A DNA stretch of 40,779 bases from NCBI GenBank assembly GCA_015231925.1, contig JADGAQ010000012.1:1-40779 (forward strand), in the 5' to 3' direction. The notes under the pieces were generated by a model that ran no database searches, was not told the DNA's origin, and worked only from the letters and a program-made list of their open reading frames with translations. This DNA is from Magnetococcales bacterium. Its GTDB lineage: Bacteria > Pseudomonadota > Magnetococcia > Magnetococcales > JADGAQ01. Below are positions 12,219 to 40,778 of the stretch, one piece after another; the stretch's first letter is position 1, and each line of letters starts with the position of its first letter. The position numbers and the translations under genes were made by a program.

Positions 12219-15200
12219 ATGGTCGCCACCCCTTCCCATTCTTCCTCTTCGGCAGTTTTTCCACAACTGTGGGTAAAGGAGAAAGGTATTTCTCTGCTGC
12301 CGGGCCAGGAGATCCTGCAATTGCCGGATGCCTCCTATCTGTTGCAGGGCGATTATCAGCGGCTGGGTACGGATCTGCTCATCACCAATCCGCAAGGCGA
12401 ATCGATCCGCATCGAGGGCTATTTCGCCCGGGCTGATCCTCCCGCGCTGGTACTGGCCAACGGTGCGGCCCTGACCTTCGAGACGGTATCGGCCCTGGCT
12501 CTGCCCGGAGGAGCGGTCCATCTGGCGGGGCCCGTCCCGGAGGGGGAGGGGGGCGATGTCATCGGTCAGGCGGAGATCCTGGTGGGGCGGGTCACGGTGA
12601 CCGGCAAGGATGGCGCCACCCGGCAACTGAAGGAGGGCGACGCGGTTCGGGAAGGGGATCAGGTTCGTACTGCGGAGGAGAGCCTGGTCAAGTTCACCCT
12701 GAAGGATGGGACGGTCTTTCAGCTCGGCGAGCAGGCCCGGGCGGTGGTGGACCACTACGTTTTCCGTCCCGAAGCGGCCCAGGGGGCCTTCGGGGCCTCG
12801 GTGGTGACCGGCATGTTCCGCTACTCCAGCGGGCAGTTGGCTCATCTCAAGGAGGGACGCCACTCCGTCATCAAGACCCCCACCGCCACCATCGGCATTC
12901 GAGGCAGTGAACTGGAGGGGGAAGTGACCCTCCAGGGGGATACCACGGTAGTCCACAGCTCCGGCGTGCTGGATATCGCCGATGCCCTGGGCCGTGGCAG
13001 CGTCACCTTGTTGGAACCCGGCACCGCCACGGTGGTGCATTTTGACGGTGGGCCCCCCCTGCCGGTTTTCAAGGCGCCGGCGGAGTTGATCCAGCGGTTG
13101 CACCATCAGGTTTCCGAGGTCGGACTGCTCAAGGCCAAGGAGGTTGAAAAACAGCGCCAGGACGACCCGAACCGTCAGGATAAAAAAGAGGGTGACGCGG
13201 GGGCGAAACCGGAGGAGAAGGGCAAGGGTAAGGGCGAGGAGAAGGGCAAGGGCGAGGAAAAGGGCAAGGAGGAGGGCAAGGGCGAAGAGAAGGGCAAGGA
13301 GGAGAAGGGCAAGGAAGAGGATCGGAAACACGACGACAAGAAGGCCGATGCGGATCAGGACGACAAGTCGTCTGTCAAGGCAGACGATTCCGCCGGCCAC
13401 AAGGAAGGCGGCAAGGATGTGGCCACCTCGGACAGCCACTCCGACGGCATTCAGCGCCATGCCCTGGAAGAGGGTGGCTCGACGACCCGTCACACCACCC
13501 AGTCGGCTTCGGACACCTCTACGTTGACTTCCGATTTCATGCGGGACGATATGTTGAGTTCCAGCTATAACCAGGTTCTGCAATTGTCCGGGAACCGCTC
13601 AAACGATCCGCTTGCGCTCTCCAATACCACCACCACGACCACTTCGTTCACGTCCGGATCGAGCGGTACGGGGGAGCAGACGACCAATCTCTCCTCCCAG
13701 GAGAATGCAACCACCACGACGCAACTGACGGATACGATCAAGACGATCATCGATCTGCCGCCCGTGCTGAATCTGAGCCCGGTCTTCTCGGGGAGTTCCC
13801 TCAAGGCTGCCATGGTGACGGCCCAGTCCTATACCGGATCGTTCGCCACCTACTTCAGTGACCCCAACGCCGGCGATGTATTGACCTATTCCGCCACGCT
13901 GGGCAACGGACAGGCTTTGCCCTCCTGGCTGAGTTTCAACTCCAAAACAGGTGTACTTTCCGGCACCCCCTTGTATGGTACCCGTGATTTCTCTCTCAAA
14001 TTGACCGCCACCGACGCCAAGGGGGCTTCGGCCAGCGGCACCGTGGATCTCTCCCTGCTCCAGGTCGGCTATTTTCTGGATGACCTGGTTCAGGGTATCA
14101 CGGTGCGCTCCTCATCGGGGCAGAACGGCGTTACCGATTCCCAGGGCCGCTTTTATTACAAGGCGGGGGATACCCTCTCCTTCTCCATCGGCGGCATCAG
14201 TTTGGGTTCCAGCAAGGGCGGCGGCATCATCACCCCCTTCTCGCTGGTCGACTCCAAGGATCAGAGCGGGGCGACCAAAGCGGCCAACATGCTGCGCTTG
14301 TTGCAAACCCTCGACGCGGACGGTGATCCCTCCAACGGCATCACCATCGGCACCGGGGTGCAACAGGCCGCCGAGAACGTCAACGTCGATTTCGGGACCA
14401 GTCCCGACCAGTTTCTCGCCAAGAATTCCGGGTTGGGGAATTTTCTCCAATCCACCCTTGGCAAGACGGAAGTGGTTTCCGCCCAGCAGGCCCTGGCCCA
14501 TTTCAAGGAGGCCCTGACCCGGGAATCGAACCTGGTCACCCAGGTCAAGCAGGAGACCGCCGCCGCCGATGCGTTTGATCAGACCACCGGAAACGACACC
14601 ACCGGTGAGGATGTCACCACGGATACCTCCAGCATCGATACCCTGTTCCAGGGCACGAACAATCCGGGTGAGAGCTTCGAAACGGCGAGCGATCAGGGAG
14701 ATATCCTGGGGGATCACGTCACGCTTACCGGGAGCGTCTCGTTTCAGCAGGCCAGTGATTTTTATCGCTTCGACTTGAGCGAAGACGGTCAGGTGGCGCT
14801 GTTCCTTGCCGACTTCAACACCAGTGGCGGCGATGCGGATATCTATCTGCTGAACGCCGATGAACAAATCATCGATTACTCCGCCACGGATGGTCTCTCC
14901 GAGGCCATACGCATCGACCTGGAAGCCGGCACCTATTGGGTCGAGGTGTTCAGCCCCCTGGAGAACTCCTCCTATACCCTGGAACTGGTGGCTTCACCCA
15001 TCGGGGATGAAAACGGCACCAACGCCCCTCCCGGCGGCACCCTGACCCTTTCCGGCTCCCCGATGGAAGGGGAGAGCCTCGAAGCCGATGTCTCCGCCAT
15101 CTCCGACGGGGACGGGGTCGGCGATTTCACCTTCCTGTGGATGCGTTCCGGGGATGGCATCTCCTGGGATATCATCGATCTCGCCACGGAAGATCATTAT

Positions 15201-18200
15201 GTGCCGATTCAGGAGGATGTGGGCTATTACATCCGGGCCATGGCCTCCTATATCGATGGCCACGGAACCCAGGAAGTGCTGCTCAGCGCCGCCAGCGCCG
15301 CCGTGGCCAACGTCAACGACGACCCGACACTGGTCGTTCCCCTTTCGGATGTCTACTGGAGCAGTGTCGGCTTGCACAGCCACACCATTGCTGACGGCAG
15401 CTTTTTCGATGGCGACGGTGATTCCCTGACCTACACCGCGACTCTGGACGATGGGTCCCCTCTGCCGCAATGGCTTGCTCTCGATCCGGTCACAGGCACC
15501 TTCTCCGGCACCGTTCCTTACGGGGCCTCCGATCTGGAGATCGAGCTGACAGCGGATGACGGGATCGGGGAGCCGGTTTCGGAAGGTTTCACGATTTTCA
15601 TCTCCGGAACCGCAGTGCCGGCTCATACGCCCATTATCAACTATTCCGTCCTCTCTTTCGATGTGACTCTGGCGGATGGCGATACCCTCAGCTTCGACTG
15701 GGACTTCAAGGCTGCCGACTACCTGCCTTTCAATGACTTCGTCTTTTTCCTGGGTGTCGACGGCGCACAGGAGATTCTCTCGGATGTGGCCCAGGTGGGC
15801 AACTACGGCGACAGCGGCTGGCGGACCTTCACCTGGACGCCGGGTGCTTTCAGCGGAACCGTGGCCATCGGTGTGACCAACGTTCGGGACAGCTCCCTCT
15901 CCTCGACGGTGTCGATCGACAATATCGAGGTCAATGGACAAGGCATCAGTAACGGCACCTTCGACAACAGCCTGGCCGGTTTCTCCTCGAAGGGAACCTG
16001 GAGCATCAATAATCTCAACGGGAACAACGTTGCCGTACTGACCCCCTCGGTTGCGGGAGATCCGACGATTCCCCACGTCTGGGATTATGCGCCGATTTCC
16101 GGTGCCCCCGACTTCGGCAACCATCAGCCTTACGTCATGGAGGTTCGCTACGTGGAAGAGTCACTCTTCCGGGTGGGCGATGACCTCGATGTGGTCCTCA
16201 CCTTCGATCAGGCGGTGTCGGTGACGGGCACACCGCATCTGCAACTGGTGCTGGGCAGTACCGGGGGATATAAAACCGTTCTGGCGGATTATGTGTCGGG
16301 AGACGGCGGCAACACGTTGATCTTCTCCTATAACAGCCAGGATGCGGATTCGGGTCAGATTGCCGTGGGCAATCTCTATCTGGGCGGCGGGGATACCATT
16401 CAGGGGGTTTCCAACCAGAGCGACGCCTTTCTGGGCATTACCCGGACCGGCGATGTGGTGGCCAGTCAGTTTCTGTATGGTGCGGAAGTTTCCGTGGGAA
16501 CCTCCGGCAATGACTGGGTGCAACCGGACACCTGGGCCGATTGGAGTACGCCGACCTCCCTGTCGGATGCCCTGGCCTATCTGACTCCCGGCTCCGGCGG
16601 AGACCGGGACGTCCTGGCTTTTTCCATCGTGGATGGAAGTGGTCAGGGATACCTGTCGGGTGGTCTGAATCCCGATGGTAATTTTGACTTGATCCTCGGA
16701 TCGCGCGGTTTCCAGGTGATCAACGCAAACGGCGCGGTCATCCTTTATGAAGTGGTGTCGGGCACTAACGAGTTCATCAAGGATCTGACCGGTTTCGAAA
16801 AGCTGGTTTTTGAATTGACCGACGCTCAGGGGCACACCCTCTCCAATACCCAGGGGGCAATCACCCTGGTCGGTGGAACCTTCATCGATGCCATCCACCC
16901 GGAACATGTGGTCACCGGTTCGGATTTTGACGATACCCTGACCTTGCCCGGTTATCCTTACGGGTATCATCTGATCGTCTGGCCGGGCGAAGGCAACGAC
17001 ACGGTTTACGGCTCCGAAGAAGGCGACAGCATCGATGTTTCCAACGGCAACGACACGCTGTACGGCAATGGGGGCAGCGACTATTTTTCCGTCTGGGGTG
17101 CGGGCCACAGCTGGGTCGATGGCGGTATCGGCATGGATACGCTGTCTTTGGCCAACAATTTCATTCGCGAGCAGTCGGGGCCGTTGACCACCCAGTTGGA
17201 CGGTGGCGGCAAGCTGCATTTTTACCTCAACGGCGATGAAGTGGCGGTTATCACCAAGGATAACGCCGCCAGCCAGTCCTGGGATTATCAGGTGGTCACC
17301 ACTTCCGATGCCGGTCAATCGGGGGATGCCACCATTGATCTGCTCGATGTGGAGTGGTTTTCGGTGTGGACTCCCCAGGGCTCCCAGGTCTATGAACTGG
17401 CCACCCAGTTCAATCAGGGTGGCGGCGGCAGCACTTTTCCGGCCAGTGTCGATCTCGCGCTTCTTGACGGTGCAACCGGTTTCCGGCTCAACGGCGTGGC
17501 GTCGGGGGATGAGGCCGGCTGGTCGGTGGACTTCCTCGGGGATCTCAACGGTGACGGCTACGACGATCTGCTGATCGGCGCCAAACTGGCCGATGTCGGG
17601 GGGATGGTCAATGCCGGGGTCTCTTACGTGGTTTTCGGCCACGCCGATTCGTCGGGCACACCTCTTTCCCAACTGGATCTGTCGGCGCTGGACGGCAGCA
17701 ATGGTTTCCGTCTGGCCGGCGTCGCGGCGGGAGACCAAAGCGGCTATTCGGTTCGGGGCGCGGGGGATGTCAACGGCGACGGGTTCGCCGACCTCCTCAT
17801 CGGGGCCCGGCTGGTTGACGGGGCCTATGCCGATTCCGGAGCGGCCTATGTGGTCTTCGGCCATTCCGGGAGCTGGAATGCCTTGCTGGAGCTTTCCACC
17901 CTGAACGGCGCGGACGGTTTCCGTCTGCTGGGCGAATTGGCGGATGACTACGCCGGTTATGCTGTGGATAGCGCCGGCGACATCAACGGCGATGGTTTCG
18001 ACGATCTTCTGGTGGGGGCCTGGGGGGCCGCCGGTTCCGAACTTTACGATTACGGCGCCACCTATGTGGTCTTCGGCCATGCCGGATCCTGGATGGGCTC
18101 GATGGATCTCTCGGACTTGAACGGCACCAGCGGTTTCAAGATTCGCGGTGTCGCCGAGTACGACGATAGTGGCTATGCGGTCAGCCGCGCGGGGGATGTC

Positions 18201-21200
18201 AACGGGGATGGCTATGCCGATCTGCTCATCGGGGCGCCCAAAGCGGACGGAGGGGCTGTGGACAGCGGTGCGGCCTATGTGGTCTTCGGCCACGCTGCGA
18301 CCTGGGATCCGCTCGTCTCCCTTTCCGCTCTGAACGGCTCCAACGGGTTTGCCCTTTACGGCATCGGCTCCGGAGATCAGACCGGTTACTCCGTGAGCAA
18401 TGCGGGCGACATCAACGGCGACGGTTTTGCCGATCTCTTCATCGGGGCTTGGGCTGCCGATCCGGATGGGGTTGCTTCCGCCGGTTCCGCCTATGTGGTC
18501 TTCGGAGCCGCCTCCGGATGGGCCTCCTCGCTGTTGTTGTCCGAACTGGATGGGACCAACGGATTCCGCATCGATGGCCTTGTCGCCGGAGACTGGATGG
18601 GTCATCCGGTGGCCTCGGCGAGTGATTTCAACAACGATGGCATCGACGATCTGATCACCTCCGCCACGGGCGTCAACAGCGCCGTGGGTGACAGCTATGT
18701 GATCTTCGGGCATACCGGAACCTGGGATGCCCTGATGACGCCGGCCAGCCTGGACGGCAGCAGCGGATTCGTTCTGACGGGTGATGCCGGCCTGACCACC
18801 TGGAGCGGCTATTCCGCTTCCGGAGGCGGCGACTTCAACGGTGACGGGCAGGACGATCTCCTTCTTGGCGCACAGCGGGCCGATCTCGTCGGCACCGATT
18901 CCGGCGTGGCCTATCTGGTTTTCGGTGGCAGCCACAGCATCGCTTCGACCATTCTGGGCAGCGATGGGGCGGATTCGCTTGCCGGAACGGGAGTGATCCG
19001 GGCCGGGGCCGGTCACGACACCATCGCCGTCGGTCAAGCCGGTTTTGGCCTGGCGGATGGCGGCGGGGGCGTCGACACCCTGGAATTGACGGGCAACGTC
19101 TCCCTGGATCTGACCGATTCGACCCAGGGGCGTATCGAGGATATCGAAATCGTCCATCTATCCGGAGGTGGCAATCAGCTCATCCTCTCCCGTTGGGAGG
19201 TGCTGGAAGCCAGTTCCACCAGCAATACCCTGGTGGTCACTTACGACGCGACCGGTCCGGCTTCCGTTCGCCTGATGGATGAATGGACCGGCAACGGTTC
19301 CTATGAAACCAATGGCACCGTCTACCAGACCTTCTCCAGCGACGGAGCCCTGCTGATGATCCAGTCCGGGGTCCAGGTGATCCAGGCCTCGGTGGATCTC
19401 TCCAGCCTCGACGGGACAGCCGGTTTTCGTCTGGATGGCGTTGAATCCAGCCATCTGGGTTGGTCGCCGACGGCAGTCGGCGATGTCAACGGCGACGGCT
19501 TCACCGATCTGGTCGTCGGCTCCTCGGAATACGACGGTTCCGCCAACAATGCCGTTTTTCTGATCTTCGGCGGCGCAGCGGGCCTGACGAGTCCGATGCA
19601 GCTCGGCAGCATGGACGGTGTTTTTGGCGTGCGCTTTGATGCGGGCAGTTCCCTGGATGGTCTCGGCATGGCCGTACAGGGTATCGGTGATCTGAACGGG
19701 GATGGCTTTGACGATTTCGCCATCGGGGCTCCCAGGACCACGGGCGCCTATTTCCGAGGTGGAACGACTTATATTGTATTCGGCAAGGAAGGCCCCTGGA
19801 ACGGATCGGTGGACCTCACCCTCTTGGATGGCAGCGACGGTTTTAGCGTCGAGGGACTGAACGATTCCGAATTAAGTGGCTTTTCCGTGAGTTCCGCAGG
19901 TGATTTCAACGCCGATGGCTACGACGATCTACTCATCGGTGGTGTGAATGGACGGTTTGACGGGATTCAATCCGGAACCGCCTACCTCCTTTTCGGCCAC
20001 ACCGGAACCTGGAACGCCAGCTTCAATCTGACCACCCTCGATGGTCAGAGCGGGACCATGTTTGTTGGAGAGTATTCGGCGGATGCGGCGGGAAGCTCGG
20101 TAACCGGAGGTTTCGACTTCAACGGCGACGGGTTCGACGATCTTGCCATTGCCGCGCCTTCCGCCTGGCTGCCCGACGATACCATGTATGCGGGTAAGGT
20201 TTATGTGGTTTTCGGTCGCGACGGCACCTTCAATCCCACCACCTCCCTCGGGAATCTGGGTCAGCCGTATGCCGAGTCGGGTGTCATCCTGATGGGGGTG
20301 GCTGCCGACGATTACACGGGCACCTCCATCGCTTCGGCGGGAGACCTCAACGGCGATGGTTTCGAGGATCTGCTCATCGGCACTCCGGAAGCCTTCAACA
20401 GTGCGGGTGTGACCTATGTGGTGTTTGGCGGTTCCCAGTGGGGCAGTGCCGGTTCCTTCTCCCTCGGGGGTTTGAACGTGTATGACGGTTTTGTCCTCAC
20501 CGGCCTGCATGACGTGGATTACGCCGGACGGACCGTCTCTTCGGCGGGAGACTTCAACGGCGACGGCTACGACGATCTGATCGTCGGGGCCAACCGGGCC
20601 AACGATGTCGGGGGCAACACGGACTACGGCGCGGCCTACCTGGTCTTTGGTCACGGGGGCGCCTGGTCACCCACTCTGGCCGTCTCCTCCCTGGATGGCA
20701 GCAACGGCTTCCGCCTGGATGGAACGGACCCCGGTGATCAGGCGGGTTGGGTGGGTTCCGCCGGGGATTTCAACGGCGACGGTTGGGATGATGTCATTAT
20801 CGGTGCGCCTTATGCCGGTGCGAACCACTATGGCAGCGCCTACGTCCTGTATGGCGGTAGCAACGGCCTGACCTGGCTGGGGGGAACGGGGGATGCCGGC
20901 GCCAACCTGTTGATCGGCACTTCCGCGACTGAAACCCTGTTCGGTATGGGCGGGGCCGATGTGATTCGTGCCGGTGGCGGTGATGACGAGATTTATGTCT
21001 CCGATACCACCTTTTTCCGCATCGACGGCGGTAATGGTTGGGACACCGTGCATCTGGACGGAACCGGCCTGAGTCTGGATCTGACCGCTCCCGCAACGGC
21101 AGGCCGGATCTCCGGTTTGGAGGGCATTGATCTTTCCGGCAGCGGCGGCAACACCCTGCTCCTGAACCGGCTCGGCCTGGAGCGCATTGCCGGAGACATC

Positions 21201-24200
21201 ACGGTGGTTATCGACGGTGACGCCGACGATACGCTGATCGTTACCGACAGCGCCAACTGGCAGCTTGCGAGCCAGGAGATCATCGGTGGGCTCACTTATC
21301 GCAACTATGTCGCTTCGGGGTTGACCCTCCAGGTTGCCCAGGCGATTGCCGTATCCGGGCCGCCCGCCATGCTTTCTTCTGTCGATCTCTCCATTCTGGA
21401 CGGCAGTAACGGTTTTCGCCTGGACGGGGTGGCGGTTGGGGATCAGAGCGGATTTTCCGCCAGCGGTGCCGGAGATGTGAACGGTGACGGTTTCGACGAT
21501 CTGATCGTTGGAGCCATCTATGCGGGGGCAAGCGATGCGGGAGTCGCCTACGTCGTTTTCGGCAAGGGGAGCGGTTTTGCCGCATCGTTGGATCTGTCGA
21601 GCCTCGACGGCAGCAACGGTTTTCGTCTGAACGGGGTGGCCTCGGGGGATGATACCGGCTGGTCGGTGAATGGGGCCGGAGATGTGAACGCGGACGGATT
21701 CGGTGACCTGATCATCGGATCCCGAGACGATCCCGGAATCAGCTATGTCGTTTTCGGCAAGGGGAGCGGTTATACCGCGACGCTCGATCTTTCCGCGCTT
21801 GACGGCAGTGACGGCTTCCGCCTGGACGGGGTATCGGCTGGGGATCTGAGCGGTTTTTCCGTGAGCGGTGCCGGAGATGTCAACGGTGACGGTTACGACG
21901 ATCTGATCGTCGGGGCTTATGGAGCGGGTCCGGGGGGAAGCGGTTCGGGAGCCAGCTACGTCGTTTTCGGCAAGGGGAGCAGCTTCGCCGCGACCCTGTC
22001 TCTTTCCACCCTTGACGGCAGCGACGGCTTCCGCCTGGACGGGGTGGCCGCCGGTGACCAGAGCGGCCTGTCCGTGAGCAATGCCGGGGATGTGAATGGG
22101 GACGGTTACGACGATCTGATCATCGGGGCTCATGCAGCGAATGACGGGGGAAGTGATTCGGGGTCCGGCTATGTGGTTTTCGGCAAGGGGAGCGGCTTCG
22201 CCTCGACCCTGGATTTGTCGGGTCTCGATGGTGGCAATGGCTTCCGCCTCGATGGCGTGCTGGCCTTTGACCACAGCGGCATTTCCGTGAGCGGCGCCGG
22301 GGATGTGAACGGTGACGGTTACGATGATCTGATTATCGGGGCCGTATTTGCGGATTCCGGAGGACAAGACTCCGGAACCAGCTACGTCGTTTTTGGCTCC
22401 GGAAGTGGTTTTGCCGCCACCTTGGATCTTTCCTCTCTTGACGGCAGCAACGGTTTCCGCCTCGATGGGGTGGATGCTTTCGACAACAGCGGCAATTCCG
22501 TGAGCAGTGCCGGGGATGTGAACGGGGATGGTTACGACGATCTGATCGTCGGGGCTCAAGCGGCGCATGTTGGAGGGGACTATGCGGGAGCCAGCTATAT
22601 CGTTTTCGGCAAGGGGAGCGGGTTTACCGCGACATTGGATCTCTCCGCGCTTGACGGCAACGACGGCTTCCGTCTTCTGGACGGGTCGGCATCCTGGGAT
22701 TGGTTCGGACATTCCGTTCGTGGCGCAGGCGATGTAAACGGGGATGGTTTTGACGATCTGGTCGTTGGGGCTCAAACGGCGGATTTTGGAGGGAGTGACT
22801 CGGGATCCAGCTACGTTTTCTTCGGCGGCAATTTCAGCGGCAATACTCTGGTCACCACCGGCACTGCCGCCGCCGAGTATCTGCAGGGCGGTTCCGGCAA
22901 CGATACCCTGACCGGTGGCGGCGGAGCGGATGTGTTCCGTGGCGGGGCGGGAGATGATCTCCTGGTCGTCACCGATACCGGGTTCCAATCCCTCGACGGC
23001 GGAACCGGAACGGATACCCTGACGCTCGCCGGCAGCGATCTGCATCTCGACCTGACCGATTCCGCCATGCTGGGACGCATAACGAACATCGATGCAATCG
23101 ATCTGGGCAGCCAGGGCACGGGCAATCGGCTGACCCTGTCGTTGCAGACCCTGCTGCACACCACCTCCACGGGCCACACCCTGCAGGTGAACGGCGGCGC
23201 GGAAAGCGCCGTGCATCTCACCGACTATGCCGATTGGGTAGCGGACGGAATCACCACTCTCAACGGCCACGATTACCAGGTTTACACCCAGGGTGGGGCC
23301 AGGTTGCAGATCGAATCCGGCATCGCTTTCGCCGGGCCTTCCGTTATTGAACTCTCCACCCTGAACGGCGGCAACGGTTTCCGACTTGACGGCGTTTCCT
23401 TCGACGATTACAGCGGCTGGTCGGTGGATATCGTCGGCGATGTCAACGGGGACGGCTTTGACGACTTGGTAATCGGCGCCTATCGGGCGGACCCGAACGG
23501 TAGCCAATCGGGGGCGGTCTATGTGGTTTTTGGTCACTCCTTCGAATGGGGTTCGAAGATCGCGCTCGGTAATCTCGACGGCAGCGACGGATTCCGTCTG
23601 GAGGGCTCCGTAGGTGGGGATAGGGCAGGGTACTCGGTCAGCGGCGCGGGGGATTTCAATGGAGATGGTTTTGCCGATCTCCTCATCGGGGCGGATGGAG
23701 CGAGCGGGTATTCTGGAGCCACCTATCTGGTTTTCGGGCGCAGTGGTACCTGGGACGCTACACTGAACCTCTCTACCTTGGACAACGGCAGCCTTGGTTT
23801 CCGTTTGACGGGAGAATCTGCCGGGGACCACAGCAGCGACTCCGTGAGTCGGGCGGGAGATGTCAACGGCGATGGCTACGACGACCTCATCATCGGGGCT
23901 CCCCACTCCACGGCGGGCGGTGTGGGAATCGATACCGGAGTGGCCTATGTGATGTTCGGCCACGAAGGCACGGTCGCCTCACCCCTTTCGTTGGCGGCTT
24001 TCGACGGCAGCGACGGCTTCCGGTTGAACGGCGCGGCCCCGAATGATCGGACCGGCTCCGCCGTCTCCGGCGCCGGGGATGTCAACGGGGACGGTTTCGC
24101 CGATCTGATCGTCGGAGCCCCGGGTTTCAGCGTGGTGGGACCGGAATATGGCGCGGCCTATCTGGTCTTCGGCCATTCCGGGGATTGGACCGCCACGGTC

Positions 24201-25445
24201 GACCTCTCCACTCTGAGCGGCGGCGACGGCGTCCGGCTCGACGGAATCTACAGCGGTGACCGCACCGGCTGGCCCGTGGGCAACGCCGGCGATCTGAACG
24301 GGGACGGTTTCGACGATTTTCTCATCGGCGCCTGGGACAACTACGCCGGTGGTTTGTACAGCGGTTCGACTTACGTGGTCTTTGGTAAAGGGAGTACCTG
24401 GACGGGCACTTTCGATCTGGCCAGCCTGGACGGCAACAACGGTTTCCGCGTGGACGGCGTGGACGGTGGCGATTACGCCGGCCTCGGCAGCAGCGGCATC
24501 GGCGATTTCAACGGGGATGGTTTTGACGATCTGCTGATCGGCGCTCCCGAGTCCGATATCGTCTCCACGGATGCCGGGTCAAGCTATATCCTCTTCGGTC
24601 ACGGCGGGAGCTTCTCCAGCATCATTAACCTGGCCTCCCTGAACGGCGCCAACGGGGTGCGCCTGGACGGAGTCGATGCCGACGACTATTCCGGCAATTC
24701 CGTTTCGGGCATGGGGGATATCAACGGCGACGGTTTTGCCGATATCCTGATCGGCGCTCCCGGTGCGTCTGGTGGGGATTATTATTCCGGCTCCAGCTTC
24801 GTGGTCTTCGGCGGCAACTTCCAGTCCCGCCCGGTGGTTTACGACGATGGCACCGCAGGTGACGACTTCCTTCGCGGAAGCACCACACCAGCCGCGCTGA
24901 TGGGTTATGGCGGCGACGACCTTCTGATGGGCAACAGCGGAGCCGATACCCTGAACGGCGGTTCCGGCATCGACAGCCTGCACGGCGGGGCCGGTAACGA
25001 CATCCTCTACTTCGAAGCCAACGACCGGTTGATCGACGGCGGCAGCGGGCTGGATACCCTGCTCTTCGACGGCACGAGCGACGCCCTCGATCTGCATGCC
25101 CAAAACGTTCAAGGCATCGATCGCATCGATATGGCGAGTTCGTCTCCGGGAGCCGATTCCCTCTCCCTGCGGCTGGATGATCTGCTGAACAAAACCGACG
25201 ATAACGTCTTGCTGGTGGACGGTGACGCCAACGACACGGTCACCGTGACCTGGTACAGCCTCTTCGGTTATCCGCCGCTGCTGGCGGAAAACGACACGGT
25301 GAACTACGACGGAGCCGCTTACACCGTGAATGCCAGCCATCAGGTGACCATCGGCAGTCAATCGTATTTGGCTTGTGGACCAAGTGGCGCACCCTTCGCC
25401 ACCTTGCTGGTGGACAGTGATATGGCATTATTCCGGCAAGACTGA
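12219..25445 (+). CDS. Giant RTX-like adhesin with FecR domain and four FG-GAP beta-propellers
   Basis: A 4408-residue protein, probably exported by a type I system and kept at or released from the cell surface. It has no Sec signal. Approximate residues: 1-115 beta-rich N-terminal module; 115-280 FecR domain (IGIRGSELEGE); 308-408 Lys/Glu linker; 421-514 Ser/Thr-rich; 515-616 cadherin-like; 828-925 PPC-type; 938-1034 Ig-like; 1038-1130 second cadherin-like; about 1430-1640 RTX-like (GNDTLYGNGG). Four FG-GAP blocks follow at 1740-2240, 2390-2883, 3053-3538 and 3707-4201, each with seven DxNGDGxxD repeats, separated by RTX-like spacers. A fifth RTX-like part (GGDDLLMGNSGADTLNGG) forms the C-terminus, where a type I secretion signal belongs. 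It is one open frame with no breaks. Secretion genes are absent here. Possible roles: surface attachment, biofilm, S-layer-like coat. Confidence 0.9.
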   Translation: MVATPSHSSSSAVFPQLWVKEKGISLLPGQEILQLPDASYLLQGDYQRLGTDLLITNPQGESIRIEGYFARADPPALVLANGAALTFETVSALALPGGAVHLAGPVPEGEGGDVIGQAEILVGRVTVTGKDGATRQLKEGDAVREGDQVRTAEESLVKFTLKDGTVFQLGEQARAVVDHYVFRPEAAQGAFGASVVTGMFRYSSGQLAHLKEGRHSVIKTPTATIGIRGSELEGEVTLQGDTTVVHSSGVLDIADALGRGSVTLLEPGTATVVHFDGGPPLPVFKAPAELIQRLHHQVSEVGLLKAKEVEKQRQDDPNRQDKKEGDAGAKPEEKGKGKGEEKGKGEEKGKEEGKGEEKGKEEKGKEEDRKHDDKKADADQDDKSSVKADDSAGHKEGGKDVATSDSHSDGIQRHALEEGGSTTRHTTQSASDTSTLTSDFMRDDMLSSSYNQVLQLSGNRSNDPLALSNTTTTTTSFTSGSSGTGEQTTNLSSQENATTTTQLTDTIKTIIDLPPVLNLSPVFSGSSLKAAMVTAQSYTGSFATYFSDPNAGDVLTYSATLGNGQALPSWLSFNSKTGVLSGTPLYGTRDFSLKLTATDAKGASASGTVDLSLLQVGYFLDDLVQGITVRSSSGQNGVTDSQGRFYYKAGDTLSFSIGGISLGSSKGGGIITPFSLVDSKDQSGATKAANMLRLLQTLDADGDPSNGITIGTGVQQAAENVNVDFGTSPDQFLAKNSGLGNFLQSTLGKTEVVSAQQALAHFKEALTRESNLVTQVKQETAAADAFDQTTGNDTTGEDVTTDTSSIDTLFQGTNNPGESFETASDQGDILGDHVTLTGSVSFQQASDFYRFDLSEDGQVALFLADFNTSGGDADIYLLNADEQIIDYSATDGLSEAIRIDLEAGTYWVEVFSPLENSSYTLELVASPIGDENGTNAPPGGTLTLSGSPMEGESLEADVSAISDGDGVGDFTFLWMRSGDGISWDIIDLATEDHYVPIQEDVGYYIRAMASYIDGHGTQEVLLSAASAAVANVNDDPTLVVPLSDVYWSSVGLHSHTIADGSFFDGDGDSLTYTATLDDGSPLPQWLALDPVTGTFSGTVPYGASDLEIELTADDGIGEPVSEGFTIFISGTAVPAHTPIINYSVLSFDVTLADGDTLSFDWDFKAADYLPFNDFVFFLGVDGAQEILSDVAQVGNYGDSGWRTFTWTPGAFSGTVAIGVTNVRDSSLSSTVSIDNIEVNGQGISNGTFDNSLAGFSSKGTWSINNLNGNNVAVLTPSVAGDPTIPHVWDYAPISGAPDFGNHQPYVMEVRYVEESLFRVGDDLDVVLTFDQAVSVTGTPHLQLVLGSTGGYKTVLADYVSGDGGNTLIFSYNSQDADSGQIAVGNLYLGGGDTIQGVSNQSDAFLGITRTGDVVASQFLYGAEVSVGTSGNDWVQPDTWADWSTPTSLSDALAYLTPGSGGDRDVLAFSIVDGSGQGYLSGGLNPDGNFDLILGSRGFQVINANGAVILYEVVSGTNEFIKDLTGFEKLVFELTDAQGHTLSNTQGAITLVGGTFIDAIHPEHVVTGSDFDDTLTLPGYPYGYHLIVWPGEGNDTVYGSEEGDSIDVSNGNDTLYGNGGSDYFSVWGAGHSWVDGGIGMDTLSLANNFIREQSGPLTTQLDGGGKLHFYLNGDEVAVITKDNAASQSWDYQVVTTSDAGQSGDATIDLLDVEWFSVWTPQGSQVYELATQFNQGGGGSTFPASVDLALLDGATGFRLNGVASGDEAGWSVDFLGDLNGDGYDDLLIGAKLADVGGMVNAGVSYVVFGHADSSGTPLSQLDLSALDGSNGFRLAGVAAGDQSGYSVRGAGDVNGDGFADLLIGARLVDGAYADSGAAYVVFGHSGSWNALLELSTLNGADGFRLLGELADDYAGYAVDSAGDINGDGFDDLLVGAWGAAGSELYDYGATYVVFGHAGSWMGSMDLSDLNGTSGFKIRGVAEYDDSGYAVSRAGDVNGDGYADLLIGAPKADGGAVDSGAAYVVFGHAATWDPLVSLSALNGSNGFALYGIGSGDQTGYSVSNAGDINGDGFADLFIGAWAADPDGVASAGSAYVVFGAASGWASSLLLSELDGTNGFRIDGLVAGDWMGHPVASASDFNNDGIDDLITSATGVNSAVGDSYVIFGHTGTWDALMTPASLDGSSGFVLTGDAGLTTWSGYSASGGGDFNGDGQDDLLLGAQRADLVGTDSGVAYLVFGGSHSIASTILGSDGADSLAGTGVIRAGAGHDTIAVGQAGFGLADGGGGVDTLELTGNVSLDLTDSTQGRIEDIEIVHLSGGGNQLILSRWEVLEASSTSNTLVVTYDATGPASVRLMDEWTGNGSYETNGTVYQTFSSDGALLMIQSGVQVIQASVDLSSLDGTAGFRLDGVESSHLGWSPTAVGDVNGDGFTDLVVGSSEYDGSANNAVFLIFGGAAGLTSPMQLGSMDGVFGVRFDAGSSLDGLGMAVQGIGDLNGDGFDDFAIGAPRTTGAYFRGGTTYIVFGKEGPWNGSVDLTLLDGSDGFSVEGLNDSELSGFSVSSAGDFNADGYDDLLIGGVNGRFDGIQSGTAYLLFGHTGTWNASFNLTTLDGQSGTMFVGEYSADAAGSSVTGGFDFNGDGFDDLAIAAPSAWLPDDTMYAGKVYVVFGRDGTFNPTTSLGNLGQPYAESGVILMGVAADDYTGTSIASAGDLNGDGFEDLLIGTPEAFNSAGVTYVVFGGSQWGSAGSFSLGGLNVYDGFVLTGLHDVDYAGRTVSSAGDFNGDGYDDLIVGANRANDVGGNTDYGAAYLVFGHGGAWSPTLAVSSLDGSNGFRLDGTDPGDQAGWVGSAGDFNGDGWDDVIIGAPYAGANHYGSAYVLYGGSNGLTWLGGTGDAGANLLIGTSATETLFGMGGADVIRAGGGDDEIYVSDTTFFRIDGGNGWDTVHLDGTGLSLDLTAPATAGRISGLEGIDLSGSGGNTLLLNRLGLERIAGDITVVIDGDADDTLIVTDSANWQLASQEIIGGLTYRNYVASGLTLQVAQAIAVSGPPAMLSSVDLSILDGSNGFRLDGVAVGDQSGFSASGAGDVNGDGFDDLIVGAIYAGASDAGVAYVVFGKGSGFAASLDLSSLDGSNGFRLNGVASGDDTGWSVNGAGDVNADGFGDLIIGSRDDPGISYVVFGKGSGYTATLDLSALDGSDGFRLDGVSAGDLSGFSVSGAGDVNGDGYDDLIVGAYGAGPGGSGSGASYVVFGKGSSFAATLSLSTLDGSDGFRLDGVAAGDQSGLSVSNAGDVNGDGYDDLIIGAHAANDGGSDSGSGYVVFGKGSGFASTLDLSGLDGGNGFRLDGVLAFDHSGISVSGAGDVNGDGYDDLIIGAVFADSGGQDSGTSYVVFGSGSGFAATLDLSSLDGSNGFRLDGVDAFDNSGNSVSSAGDVNGDGYDDLIVGAQAAHVGGDYAGASYIVFGKGSGFTATLDLSALDGNDGFRLLDGSASWDWFGHSVRGAGDVNGDGFDDLVVGAQTADFGGSDSGSSYVFFGGNFSGNTLVTTGTAAAEYLQGGSGNDTLTGGGGADVFRGGAGDDLLVVTDTGFQSLDGGTGTDTLTLAGSDLHLDLTDSAMLGRITNIDAIDLGSQGTGNRLTLSLQTLLHTTSTGHTLQVNGGAESAVHLTDYADWVADGITTLNGHDYQVYTQGGARLQIESGIAFAGPSVIELSTLNGGNGFRLDGVSFDDYSGWSVDIVGDVNGDGFDDLVIGAYRADPNGSQSGAVYVVFGHSFEWGSKIALGNLDGSDGFRLEGSVGGDRAGYSVSGAGDFNGDGFADLLIGADGASGYSGATYLVFGRSGTWDATLNLSTLDNGSLGFRLTGESAGDHSSDSVSRAGDVNGDGYDDLIIGAPHSTAGGVGIDTGVAYVMFGHEGTVASPLSLAAFDGSDGFRLNGAAPNDRTGSAVSGAGDVNGDGFADLIVGAPGFSVVGPEYGAAYLVFGHSGDWTATVDLSTLSGGDGVRLDGIYSGDRTGWPVGNAGDLNGDGFDDFLIGAWDNYAGGLYSGSTYVVFGKGSTWTGTFDLASLDGNNGFRVDGVDGGDYAGLGSSGIGDFNGDGFDDLLIGAPESDIVSTDAGSSYILFGHGGSFSSIINLASLNGANGVRLDGVDADDYSGNSVSGMGDINGDGFADILIGAPGASGGDYYSGSSFVVFGGNFQSRPVVYDDGTAGDDFLRGSTTPAALMGYGGDDLLMGNSGADTLNGGSGIDSLHGGAGNDILYFEANDRLIDGGSGLDTLLFDGTSDALDLHAQNVQGIDRIDMASSSPGADSLSLRLDDLLNKTDDNVLLVDGDANDTVTVTWYSLFGYPPLLAENDTVNYDGAAYTVNASHQVTIGSQSYLACGPSGAPFATLLVDSDMALFRQD
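13201..13325 (+). repeat. In-frame Lys/Glu/Gly codon repeat
   Basis: A tandem array of short units such as GAGGAGAAGGGCAAGG, coding for EEKGKGEEKGKEE-type sequence inside the adhesin linker. The stretch is almost pure purine on the + strand. It is likely a flexible, highly charged spacer between the FecR head and the extracellular domains. Such arrays change length easily, in steps that keep the frame. Confidence 0.8.
17437..18938 (+). repeat. FG-GAP block 1 (seven repeats)
   Basis: Seven in-frame units of about 70 codons, each of the form xxLDGxxGFRLxG...AGDxNGDGxxDLLIGA...GxxYVVFG. The sixth unit has NNDG in place of NGDG. Seven units match one complete seven-bladed propeller. Confidence 0.85.
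19386..20866 (+). repeat. FG-GAP block 2 (seven repeats)
   Basis: Seven units of the same kind, the most diverged of the four blocks. Units 2, 4 and 5 have lost the GFRL core word (GVRF, GTMF, GVIL), but all seven keep DxN(G/A)DGxxD. Confidence 0.85.
21376..22830 (+). repeat. FG-GAP block 3 (seven near-identical repeats)
   Basis: Seven units, by far the most alike in the protein. DGSNGFRLDG or DGSDGFRLDG, GAGDVNGDGYDDLI and YVVFGKGSGF recur almost unchanged, and long stretches of DNA agree too, including third codon positions. This points to recent duplication or gene conversion inside the block. Confidence 0.88.
23338..24820 (+). repeat. FG-GAP block 4 (seven repeats)
   Basis: Seven units with moderate divergence. 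Every unit keeps the DxNGDGxxD calcium loop. The block is followed directly by the C-terminal RTX-like part of the adhesin. Confidence 0.85.
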
Positions 25446-36607: not shown

Positions 36608-37590
36608 GAGCCGAACCCGCAGAGGGCAGCTGGGAAGAGGCCTTCGCCCGTCATCTGGCCACGGAGCGGCGTTATTCGGCACATACCGTGGCGGCCTACC
36701 GCCGCGATATGGATCTGTACCGGGCATTCTGGTCATCCCGTGAGGGCGAAACCTTCGAGGAGGCCCAGTGGACCCGGGTGACCCCGGAGCATCTGCGCGG
36801 TTTTCTGGGCTGGTGCCATCGGCAACAGGTTTCCAAAGCCACCATGCAGCGGCGCATCGCCTCCCTTCGCAGTTGGTTCCGCTTTCTGGAGCGGGAAGGG
36901 ATCGTCACCGGCAATCCCGCCACGCTGGTGGCCACGCCACGGGTGCCCCAGCGTCTGCCGCGCGCTCCCGGCGAGGAGCAGACCGCCTTTCTGCTGGAGA
37001 GTCTTGCCCCTCGCGAAAATGGCGCGTCATCGGAGAAGGCTTGGTTGAAGGTGCGTTCCCATCGCAACATCGCCATGCTGGAGTTGCTTTACAGCGCCGG
37101 ATTGCGCATCGGCGAGCTGTGTCGCCTGCGTTTCGGCGATGTGGATGTCTCCGCCCAGACGGTGCGGGTATTGGGCAAAGGGGGCAAGGAGCGCATCGTT
37201 CCCGTCGGCCCGCCGGCCCTGGCCGCTTTGAGCGCATACCGGAAGCTTCGCGATGCCTTCTGGCCGGATCAGGCGGGTGCGGGATTCTGGTTTCTGGGTC
37301 AACGGGGTCAGCCCATGTCCCCCCGGGAGGCGCAACGTTTGCTGGAGGAGTGGCGGGAGAAGCTGGAGATGCCGGCTTCCCTGACGCCACATGCCCTGCG
37401 CCACGCTTTCGCCACGCATCTGTTGCGGGGAGGGGCTGATCTGCGTTCCATTCAGGAGATGATGGGTCATGCCGCCCTCTCCACCACGCAGCGGTACACC
37501 CATCTGGAGCTGGCCAGTCTGGCCCGGATCTACGATGCCGCCCATCCTCGGGCCAAAGCCTGCCGCGCCTCCCGCGAGGAGGAGCGATGA
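36604..37590 (+). CDS. xerC: Tyrosine recombinase XerC
   Basis: A 328-residue site-specific recombinase that, with XerD, resolves chromosome dimers at dif. The N-terminal SAM-like domain is at about residues 10-100 (HLATERRYSAHTVAAYRRDM). The catalytic part has the Arg of YSAGLRIGELCRL, the Lys of LGKGGKERIVP, HALRHAFATHLLRGG (His-x-x-Arg) and GHAALSTTQRYTHL with the nucleophile Tyr at about residue 298. All catalytic residues are present. The start is set by the ATGA overlap with DUF484. XerC rather than XerD is inferred from the DUF484 neighbour. The next gene starts inside its stop codon. Confidence 0.93.
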   Translation: MRAEPAEGSWEEAFARHLATERRYSAHTVAAYRRDMDLYRAFWSSREGETFEEAQWTRVTPEHLRGFLGWCHRQQVSKATMQRRIASLRSWFRFLEREGIVTGNPATLVATPRVPQRLPRAPGEEQTAFLLESLAPRENGASSEKAWLKVRSHRNIAMLELLYSAGLRIGELCRLRFGDVDVSAQTVRVLGKGGKERIVPVGPPALAALSAYRKLRDAFWPDQAGAGFWFLGQRGQPMSPREAQRLLEEWREKLEMPASLTPHALRHAFATHLLRGGADLRSIQEMMGHAALSTTQRYTHLELASLARIYDAAHPRAKACRASREEER

Positions 37591-38459
37591 CCTGGTTGGT
37601 TCATCTGCTTCTGGAGCGATTTCTGCTGACCCCCTGGCCCTGGGTGGCCGGGGCCTTCTGGGGGGCTTCCCTCCGCTGGATGCGGCCAGGATTGGGAGCT
37701 GCGCTTCTGGGGGGTTCCCTCTTCGTTCTCTACCTGTTGACCATCCCTCTGCCGGGCGTATTGTTGCTGGCTCCGCTGGAGGCCCCGTTTGCCGCTCTGT
37801 CCACGGAGGCGCTGCAGAGTGTCGAAGCCGATGCCATCGTGGTGCTGGGGGGAGGGCGTCGTCCGGCGGCTCGGGAATACGATGAGGACGATGTGGTCAA
37901 CCACTCCTCCCTGACCCGGATTCATATGGCGGCCCATCTTTACCGTCGCACCGCTCTTCCTGTCCTCTTGTCCGGGGGCAGTCCCATGGACGAGCCTGTT
38001 TCCGAAGCCGCTCTGATGGCCAAGACCCTGGAAGGCGATTTTCAGGTTCCGGTTCGCTGGCAGGAGGGGAAGAGTCGCAACACCTGGGAAAATGCCGTCT
38101 TTTCCAAACGGATGCTTGAACCGCACGGTGTGGGCCGGATTCTGCTGGTGACCCAGGCCTATCATATGCTGCGGGCGCGTTGGTGTTTCGAAGAGGCGGG
38201 GTTCGAGGTGGTTGCCGTGCCGACGGAATTCATGGTGGGGCAGGAGTGGGATTATCTCTCGCTGTTGTGGCCGCGGATGATGACCGGCGAAAAAATGATG
38301 CTGGCCACCCACGAATGGCTGGGGCTGGGCTGGTATCGCCTGCGATATCTCCTCTGGCCGGTTCTGGAGGCTCGTCTGTCCCAATGGGAGAGGGGGCTTT
38401 CCCGGTTCCTGACGAAACAACACAATCCCCTGACGTTCAATATGTTGCCTTTAAAGTAG
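37587..38459 (+). CDS. YdcF/ElyC-like DUF218 membrane protein
   Basis: A 290-residue inner-membrane protein with two hydrophobic segments near the N-terminus (about residues 15-30 and 37-60) and a DUF218 domain from about 80 on. ADAIVVLGGGRR, LPVLLSGGS, EGKSRNTWENAVFS and ILLVTQAYHMLRA are the usual DUF218 motifs. E. coli ElyC, of this family, affects peptidoglycan and lipid carrier use; the same role here is inference. It overlaps the xerC stop (ATGA). Its last six codons and stop lie inside the left arm of the long inverted repeat 38439-38488, so its C-terminal end seems to be supplied by the repeat. Confidence 0.85.
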   Translation: MTWLVHLLLERFLLTPWPWVAGAFWGASLRWMRPGLGAALLGGSLFVLYLLTIPLPGVLLLAPLEAPFAALSTEALQSVEADAIVVLGGGRRPAAREYDEDDVVNHSSLTRIHMAAHLYRRTALPVLLSGGSPMDEPVSEAALMAKTLEGDFQVPVRWQEGKSRNTWENAVFSKRMLEPHGVGRILLVTQAYHMLRARWCFEEAGFEVVAVPTEFMVGQEWDYLSLLWPRMMTGEKMMLATHEWLGLGWYRLRYLLWPVLEARLSQWERGLSRFLTKQHNPLTFNMLPLK

Positions 38460-38701
38460 CAAAAAAAGGAAATGTTCTATCCTTTGACCTTGTCCGTTAT
38501 CCTGTTAAGGAAAAGTGTATCCTTTCAGATATACGGGGGTTCGGGGGGGATTATCCCCCCCGACGGGTCCAGGGCAGCGCCCTGGGACTCTTTCTTTCGC
38601 CGTTGACACGATCATGCCGCTCTGTGCAGGGGCCTCAATAGTTTCCGAAAAGTCAAAGGATAGAACATTTCCTTTTTTTGCTTTCTTAAAGGCAAAATAT
38701 T
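38439..38701. repeat. 263-bp element with 50-bp terminal inverted repeats and GC-rich core (class A, copy 2)
   Basis: The arms 38439-38488 and 38652-38701 are inverted copies that differ at about 4 of 50 positions. Between them lies a core of about 163 bp. On the minus strand it matches the repeat at 2346-2513: AACTATT, the 24-nt block (38594-38617 here), one CCAGGGC hairpin (38569-38585) and a perfect G7/C7 hairpin (38541-38563). The left arm holds the stop codon of the upstream gene and the right arm reaches the stop codon of the downstream convergent gene. It has no coding capacity and no clear target-site duplication. It may be a MITE-like element or a duplicated transcription terminator invaded by repeat A. 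Confidence 0.8.
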
Positions 38702-39551
38702 AAAAAGAATGTTCAGTCATGAGTTCTTCCAGTCGTTGCAGGTCGTCCCAGGCGTCTTTTTTGCGGCTGGATTGGCGCAGATAAAAGGCGGGATGATAGC
38801 TGGCCACCACGGGAATGCCTCGCCAGGCGGCGCTGCGATTGCGCGCCGCGCCGATGGGACCGGTATGGCCCAGCAGGCTTTCGATGGCGAAGCGTCCCAG
38901 TGCGAAGAGAATGACCGGCTGAATGATCTCCAGTTGCCGGAAAAGAAAGCCCTGACAGAGGGCGACCTCTTCCGGTGCGGGATTGCGATTGGCCGGGGGG
39001 CGGCACTTGAGGACGTTGGCGATATAGATCTGACCGCGGTCGAGACCGATGGAGGCGAGCATGCGATCCAGCAGCTTTCCCGCCTGTCCGACGAAGGGTT
39101 CGCCCCGTTTGTCCTCTTCCGCTCCCGGCGCCTCGCCGACGAAGACCACCCGCGCGGTGGGATCACCCACGCCGAAGACGGTCTGAATACGGCTGGCGGA
39201 GAGGGCACAGCGTTGGCAGGGCAGCACCTCCTGACGAAGGCGATCGAGTTCCTGCACCTTTTCGGCATCGGAGAGGCGACGGGTGGTGGTCATAGTCGTT
39301 TGATTGGCCAGAACGGGTTGGGGGACGGAAATGGAGGCCGACGGTCTCGCCGTCGGGGCGTTTCGGACGGGGCCCGAAGGGGGAACCATGGCTACGGGGG
39401 CGGCTCGCAGGGGTTTGCTCACCTGCGCAGACGGTGCGGGTTCCGAGACCGTCCAATCCTGGGGATCGTCCGCCGTGAGATGGGAAATCCCGCAACTTTC
39501 CCAGTATTCGAGAAGGGTTACCACGGGAGAGGAGGGGTTGATCGGCTTCAT
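38700..39551 (-). CDS. Uracil-DNA glycosylase, family 4 (Fe-S)
   Basis: A 283-residue DNA repair enzyme that removes uracil from DNA. CQRC (C112, C115), C183 in VLKCRPP and C199 in ALCQGF are the four ligands of the Fe-S cluster of family 4. GEAPGAEED (139-147) is the active-site motif and YHPAFYLR (252-259) the second one. The first ~90 residues are a Pro/Ala-rich extension common in such proteins, starting with a short helix ([12 protein letters not shown]). The start at 39551 is preferred for this helix; an open frame continues to 39605. No strong ribosome binding site is visible. Its stop touches the right arm of the inverted repeat. Confidence 0.92.
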
Positions 39552-40735: not shown

Positions 40736-40778
40736 TCGTTCATTAATACGGGGGTCCGGGGGCGATTATCGCCCCCGG
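40707..40778. repeat. GC-rich hairpin repeat, class B, copy 2
   Basis: On the minus strand it has a perfect 11-bp hairpin (40756-40778, one-base centre), a C-rich stretch, then AATGAAACAGAA and GGAATAAA. This is the same order as in 99-190. The hairpin reaches almost to the window edge, so the element probably continues beyond it. Confidence 0.6.

Follow-up and report, generated by a model that had tools for sequence, protein, structure and literature searches.

Two nested repeats between convergent genes in a Magnetococcales genome

At a convergent gene junction in a Magnetococcales draft genome (4.51 Mb in 358 contigs, 97.4% complete) we found two nested repeats, which we interpret, with a probability of about 0.65, as an older, lineage-specific, non-coding palindromic arm element and a younger 129-bp MITE in its loop. 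The older element would consist of two facing arms of ~60 nt around a short AT-rich loop, placed in many gene junctions, frequently right up against the stop codons of the flanking genes. The MITE would have transposed into that loop, duplicating 8 bp. At the level of sequence, the two repeat families, their nesting, the 8-bp duplication and the packed counterparts, in relatives, of the arm junctions examined are established.

The junction and its two repeats

The window, by which we mean the whole 40,779-nt stretch of DNA that was analysed, is contig C12 of this genome. Two arms of 56 nt each (38436-38491 and 38649-38704) form an inverted repeat that is 89% complementary, with 157 nt between them. 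They sit between a plus-strand gene, whose stop codon extends to 38459, and a minus-strand gene, which ends at 38700. An earlier note on this DNA had described such arms, and over the span it gave they are identical at 48 of 53 positions (~91%). A profile of the arm family places the left arm, which the note has starting at 38439, at 38431-38493 on the plus strand (64 bits, E 3e-19) and the right arm at 38646-38706 on the minus strand (52 bits, E 2e-15). As that note had also read, the left arm supplies the final codons and stop of the plus-strand gene (37587-38459), which terminates as ...TFNMLPLK-TAG inside the arm, and at its outer edge the right arm overlaps the uracil-DNA glycosylase stop codon (38700-38702). 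The right-hand gene clearly encodes a family-4 uracil-DNA glycosylase; the assignment of the left-hand gene as ElyC/YdcF-like is weak. Among the named hits of the glycosylase, the one with the best E-value comes from a Magnetococcales bin (49% identity), which makes this order probable for the genome. The hairpin has a folding energy of -128.5 kcal/mol (z = -11.7), and none of 200 shuffled sequences folded as well. No promoter-like site was found across 38350-38800. The window also contains a single plus-strand open reading frame of 4408 codons (12219-25445).

Between the arms lies a GC-rich core of 129 bp on the plus strand (38517-38645; core profile 95 bits), with imperfect ends GTATCCTTTCAG and CTCAATAGTTTC. 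It is bracketed by GGAAAAGT (38509-38516) and CGAAAAGT (38646-38653, reaching into the right arm on its loop-facing side), which are alike at 7 of 8 bp. When the flanks of the core are rejoined, with 38492-38508 as the first part of the original loop, the result is an arm, a loop of ~26 nt and a second arm, giving a 21-bp stem followed by U7. The core belongs to a family with copies of ~129 and ~185 bp and 12-bp ends GTAWCTRTTCAG and CTGAAYAGWTAC, for which the part of the genome read contained 54 end pairs and 184 profile hits. The flanks of these copies are identical over 8 bp in 10 of 54 cases, with 0.2 expected, and there is no excess at other lengths. The core is short and non-coding, with terminal inverted repeats, many copies and target duplications of one fixed length. 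Neither these ends and duplications nor the genome-wide repetition of the arm appeared in the earlier note, which had nevertheless reported a copy of the core near 2.4 kb and an invasion by a second repeat. The copy is at 2343-2522, in reverse orientation and without arms, and a further partial copy on the plus strand (40736-40778) reaches the contig end. The invasion is borne out by the target duplication around the core and its recurrence across the family, which demonstrate that an arm-loop-arm element was there first and that the core, a distinct MITE of 129 bp, inserted into its loop.

The order of events has a parallel elsewhere in the genome, where an arm is interrupted by a core copy with GATACTTA at both sides. 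Because the core lies within the loop in the window and splits an arm in that second case, the arms are the older component in both. In all, 24 core elements are wholly contained within arm pairs. The 8-bp duplication and GTA- ends of the core are reminiscent of IS66; as a source of the core IS66 was rejected, as none of its loci is flanked by matching ends. The core family is partly present across the order, unlike the arm.

The arm family in the genome and its relatives

The arm is an AT-rich repeat of ~60 nt with the consensus (T)TTTGACTTTCAATATTTTATCTTTTAAGTATCAAAAAAAGRAAATGTTCTRTCCTTTGAC. The earlier note would have given up its account had the arm been found nowhere else; a 26-nt piece of it has 372 copies genome-wide at up to three mismatches, with none for the reversed control, and on this point the account stands. 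We read 1.06 Mb closely, including contigs of a second genome (G008, discussed below), and searched it with the arm profile; the total sequence covered was ~1.8 Mb of 4.5 Mb, the first megabase being picked largely for arm content, and 73 kb were masked. The profile found 221 arms in the 1.06 Mb, forming 78 facing pairs within 600 nt and no back-to-back pair; the remainder comprised 5 same-direction neighbours and 65 single arms, for most of which a low-similarity partner was missing. As judged with a simple purpose-made gene caller, no pair or single arm in this sequence lies inside a called gene. The inner 28 nt of the arm are nearly invariant except at two purine positions, and the outer end is ragged.

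Paired arms are most frequently separated by 40-75 nt. These short loops have a G+C content of 23%, versus 55% in other intergenic DNA. In the part read, 32 of 48 had no other match, and most matches of the rest were weak or AT-rich. Since mostly unrelated loops lie between conserved arms, a pair does not resemble a single unit that is copied whole.

Arm and core densities co-vary across the stretches read (rho = 0.56, a value inflated by the choice of stretches). Both repeats are dense on stretches L080-L119 and L198-L217 and nearly absent from 757 kb that include L336-L375, which is partly a selection effect. The repeats could be clustered in certain regions of the genome, or else the bin could be mixed, and the draft cannot tell which; a mixed bin found no backing in tetranucleotide composition, to which arm density is unrelated (|rho| < 0.19).

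Among 48 genomes of the order, the arm was found in this genome and G008 and was absent from the 46 others; a phylum sample of 398 genomes yielded the same two only. The 14 arms of G008 are all on two contigs, C153 (stretch L193) and C253 (stretches L194 and L195). Contig C153 bears pyrB, while G008 holds another pyrB that is 72% identical and the genome of the window has none. From this second pyrB in one genome and its lack in the other, C153 probably comes from the species of the window and was misbinned, as C253 may have been. Horizontal transfer to G008 was rejected as the source of its arms, given their confinement to two contigs and a pyrB pattern that makes misbinning of at least C153 probable. 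No exact match to the arm was found in IMG/VR and no match among plasmids, and Rfam returned only sub-threshold matches, none above the gathering score.

The earlier note had proposed a comparison with empty sites in relatives. The site in the window yielded none, as ydcF does not adjoin the uracil-DNA glycosylase gene in the flanks fetched from relatives, but other junctions that contain arm elements here are packed there. On contig C62 of this genome, arm elements occupy every junction of pal, cpoB, queC and tilS; they are also found after tilS (stretch L085, 2091-6705), in a cluster that is compact in relatives. The cpoB-queC spacing is 358 nt and the queC-tilS spacing 449 nt. In relatives, no more than 137 nt, and mostly fewer than 45 nt, lie between the stop of cpoB and the first aligned residue of QueC, and TilS usually comes no more than 160 nt later, a single exception lying near 570 nt. 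On C153, 426 nt containing four arms separate the pyrB stop from the first aligned PyrC residue; where relatives have pyrB and pyrC both on the plus strand, nearly all of these pairs overlap or abut, and one has a gap of 109 nt. The tight arrangement of both clusters in relatives, set against the arm elements in this lineage, identifies the arm elements as insertions. Three of the arms between pyrB and pyrC are in direct tandem with 54-nt spacing, next to a short AGAGGATT-type repeat array (stretch L193, 2626-3031).

Mobile repeat, terminator or cassette

The earlier note had offered a MITE-like insertion as one description of the paired arms. Inverted ends, the many copies, their almost exclusive occurrence in one genome and the packed junctions of relatives agree with this description, but the pairs lack a shared interior and a target duplication: among 68 pairs no offset or length was prominent, while a comparable test was clearly positive for the core. 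Without such a duplication the paired arms cannot be classed as an ordinary MITE. It is also a point against our interpretation that the conserved end of the arm is the inner rather than the outer one. In the part of the genome read, facing arms enclosed no recognisable transposase gene, and neither there nor at the IS66 loci did we find an autonomous partner for arm or core. The arm element would have been spread by a putative transposase acting in trans, and would persist through tolerance at gene junctions, above all at 3' ends.

Some arms carry additional sequence. A module on their outer side (M0) is followed by an arm in 20 of 21 hits, and a module on the inner side (M3), decayed and present in a minority of elements, lies inside or next to arms in 18 of 22 hits; both are essentially limited to this genome. 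Around single arms, M0, arm and M3 form a half unit of ~170 bp with inverted ends GAGGGAGTTGCAAAAC..GTTTTGCAATTGGCTC. In 5 of 18 cases the half unit is flanked by matching 4-bp sequences, with 0.6 expected. The boundaries used were initially suggested by visual inspection, and among 810 combinations of offset and length they came out close to the top. The half unit may be the true mobile unit, most copies of which have been worn down, and it leaves the near-constant facing of the arms unexplained. One half unit is at 16246-16395 of stretch L211, with ~20 other copies, and M0 can form two overlapping, mutually exclusive hairpins.

The pre-insertion form in the window, with 21 perfect pairs and then U7 on both strands (z = -10.4), has the stem and U-run of a terminator. 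This terminator-like shape is clear, and terminator function is predicted from it. The element could be retained because it works as a bidirectional transcription terminator or as a hairpin for RNA processing, and the almost complete lack of variation in the A7/T7 tracts of the arm, the closeness of its outer edge to gene 3' ends (median 11.5 nt) and the 30:8 ratio of convergent to divergent junctions are in keeping with such a role. Intrinsic bidirectional terminators have an A-run, a GC-containing stem and a T-run that can be read from either strand. The arm element resembles them in having A-run, stem and T-run, but here it is sequence rather than pairing that is conserved, and the stem continues beyond the U-run; to our knowledge, one conserved sequence repeated from site to site is not a feature of ordinary terminators. 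We consider selection for this role unlikely. The unrelated core, where it occurs without arms, leans towards convergent junctions in the same way (16:7), and most arm elements are between co-directional genes, some at junctions that form operons in relatives. At the majority of its variable sites the columns of the arm disagree within pairs, contrary to what base-pairing would demand, and relatives do without the elements. A promoter within the arms was also considered and rejected, as no spacing peak was found between the inner TTGAC and TATAAT-like sites. Given the similar leaning of the core, the co-directional placement, the disagreement of columns and the lack of a promoter signal, we regard the element as mainly a mobile repeat that the genome tolerates, whose effects on transcript ends are likely but incidental. 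Transcribed from either strand, it would fold into a strong hairpin with a U-run, and this may incidentally terminate transcripts or attract cleavage by RNase III.

The earlier note had alternatively suggested a terminator that was duplicated and inverted on the spot. The arms of this pair are ~91% alike, and identity within pairs generally is slightly over chance, at 86.6% compared with 85.5% across different pairs. So small a difference, together with the presence of the arm at hundreds of other places, refutes local duplication as a general account and makes it highly improbable at this site.

The arms could instead be the ends of lineage-specific cassettes with interchangeable toxin-antitoxin or defence cargo, the small hairpins being emptied or decayed cassettes. 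The arms nearly always face each other around variable sequence, and four of the six facing intervals of 0.8-2 kb hold such genes between arms 1.2-1.9 kb apart (stretch L202, 1196-2465 and 9689-11128; L097, 11986-13136; L115, 9234-11180): two ParD/ParE pairs, DUF2442/DUF4160 and AAA_21/DUF4276, the last matching the candidate defence system HEC-01. Two single arms also have HigB/HigA pairs next to them, towards the inside. In a control of 96 random small genes, the 25 families listed contained no such family with more than a single occurrence; nucleotidyltransferase and DUF5615, which are possible members of such systems, are among them. There are, however, only six intervals, the control covers just the families listed, and toxin-antitoxin genes prefer insertion-tolerant junctions anyway. 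A further 757 kb yielded 15 arms and no facing interval of 0.8-2 kb, and the loops are much more AT-rich than the cargo. With these small numbers the association of arms with toxin-antitoxin and candidate defence genes is suggestive, not established, and we regard the cassette origin as doubtful. Were it true that facing arms carry such genes, they would be a new small vehicle for them.

Relation to known repeats and significance

A close likeness to the arrangement described here is found among the repeats of Streptococcus pneumoniae, where the SPRITE, BOX and RUP families insert into one another (PMC3049150). SPRITE is a small, AT-rich, terminator-like repeat without an established target duplication that is enriched between convergent genes, and the convergent-junction bias of the pneumococcal repeats has been taken as a mark of parasitic elements (PMC3049150). 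Arm and core likewise nest in each other, and the arm element is AT-rich and terminator-like, with no target duplication found. It differs in its unrelated sequence and host, in its hundreds of arm copies, many of them between co-directional genes, and in having arms of ~60 nt round variable loops, in place of the short AAAA/TTTT ends and 18-bp duplex of SPRITE (PMC3049150).

Bacterial MITEs such as the Correia element are short, non-coding, intergenic and high in copy number, with terminal inverted repeats of usually ~4-30 bp and a stable stem-loop (PMC10969869). The core fits this description fully; the paired arms depart from it in their longer inverted repeats, their lack of a target duplication and their non-homologous interiors. 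REP units are palindromes of 20-40 bp with GTAG- or CGTC-tagged ends that may cluster as BIME (PMC3733652). The arms are similarly extragenic and can lie close together in larger clusters, but an arm is ~60 nt long and a single arm is not palindromic, folding no better than its shuffles (z 0.24).

The target duplications of the core give a relative order for the two repeat families. Gene clusters such as pal-cpoB-queC-tilS, which are compact in relatives and split at each junction in this genome, constitute a natural test of how operons survive the insertion of repeats.
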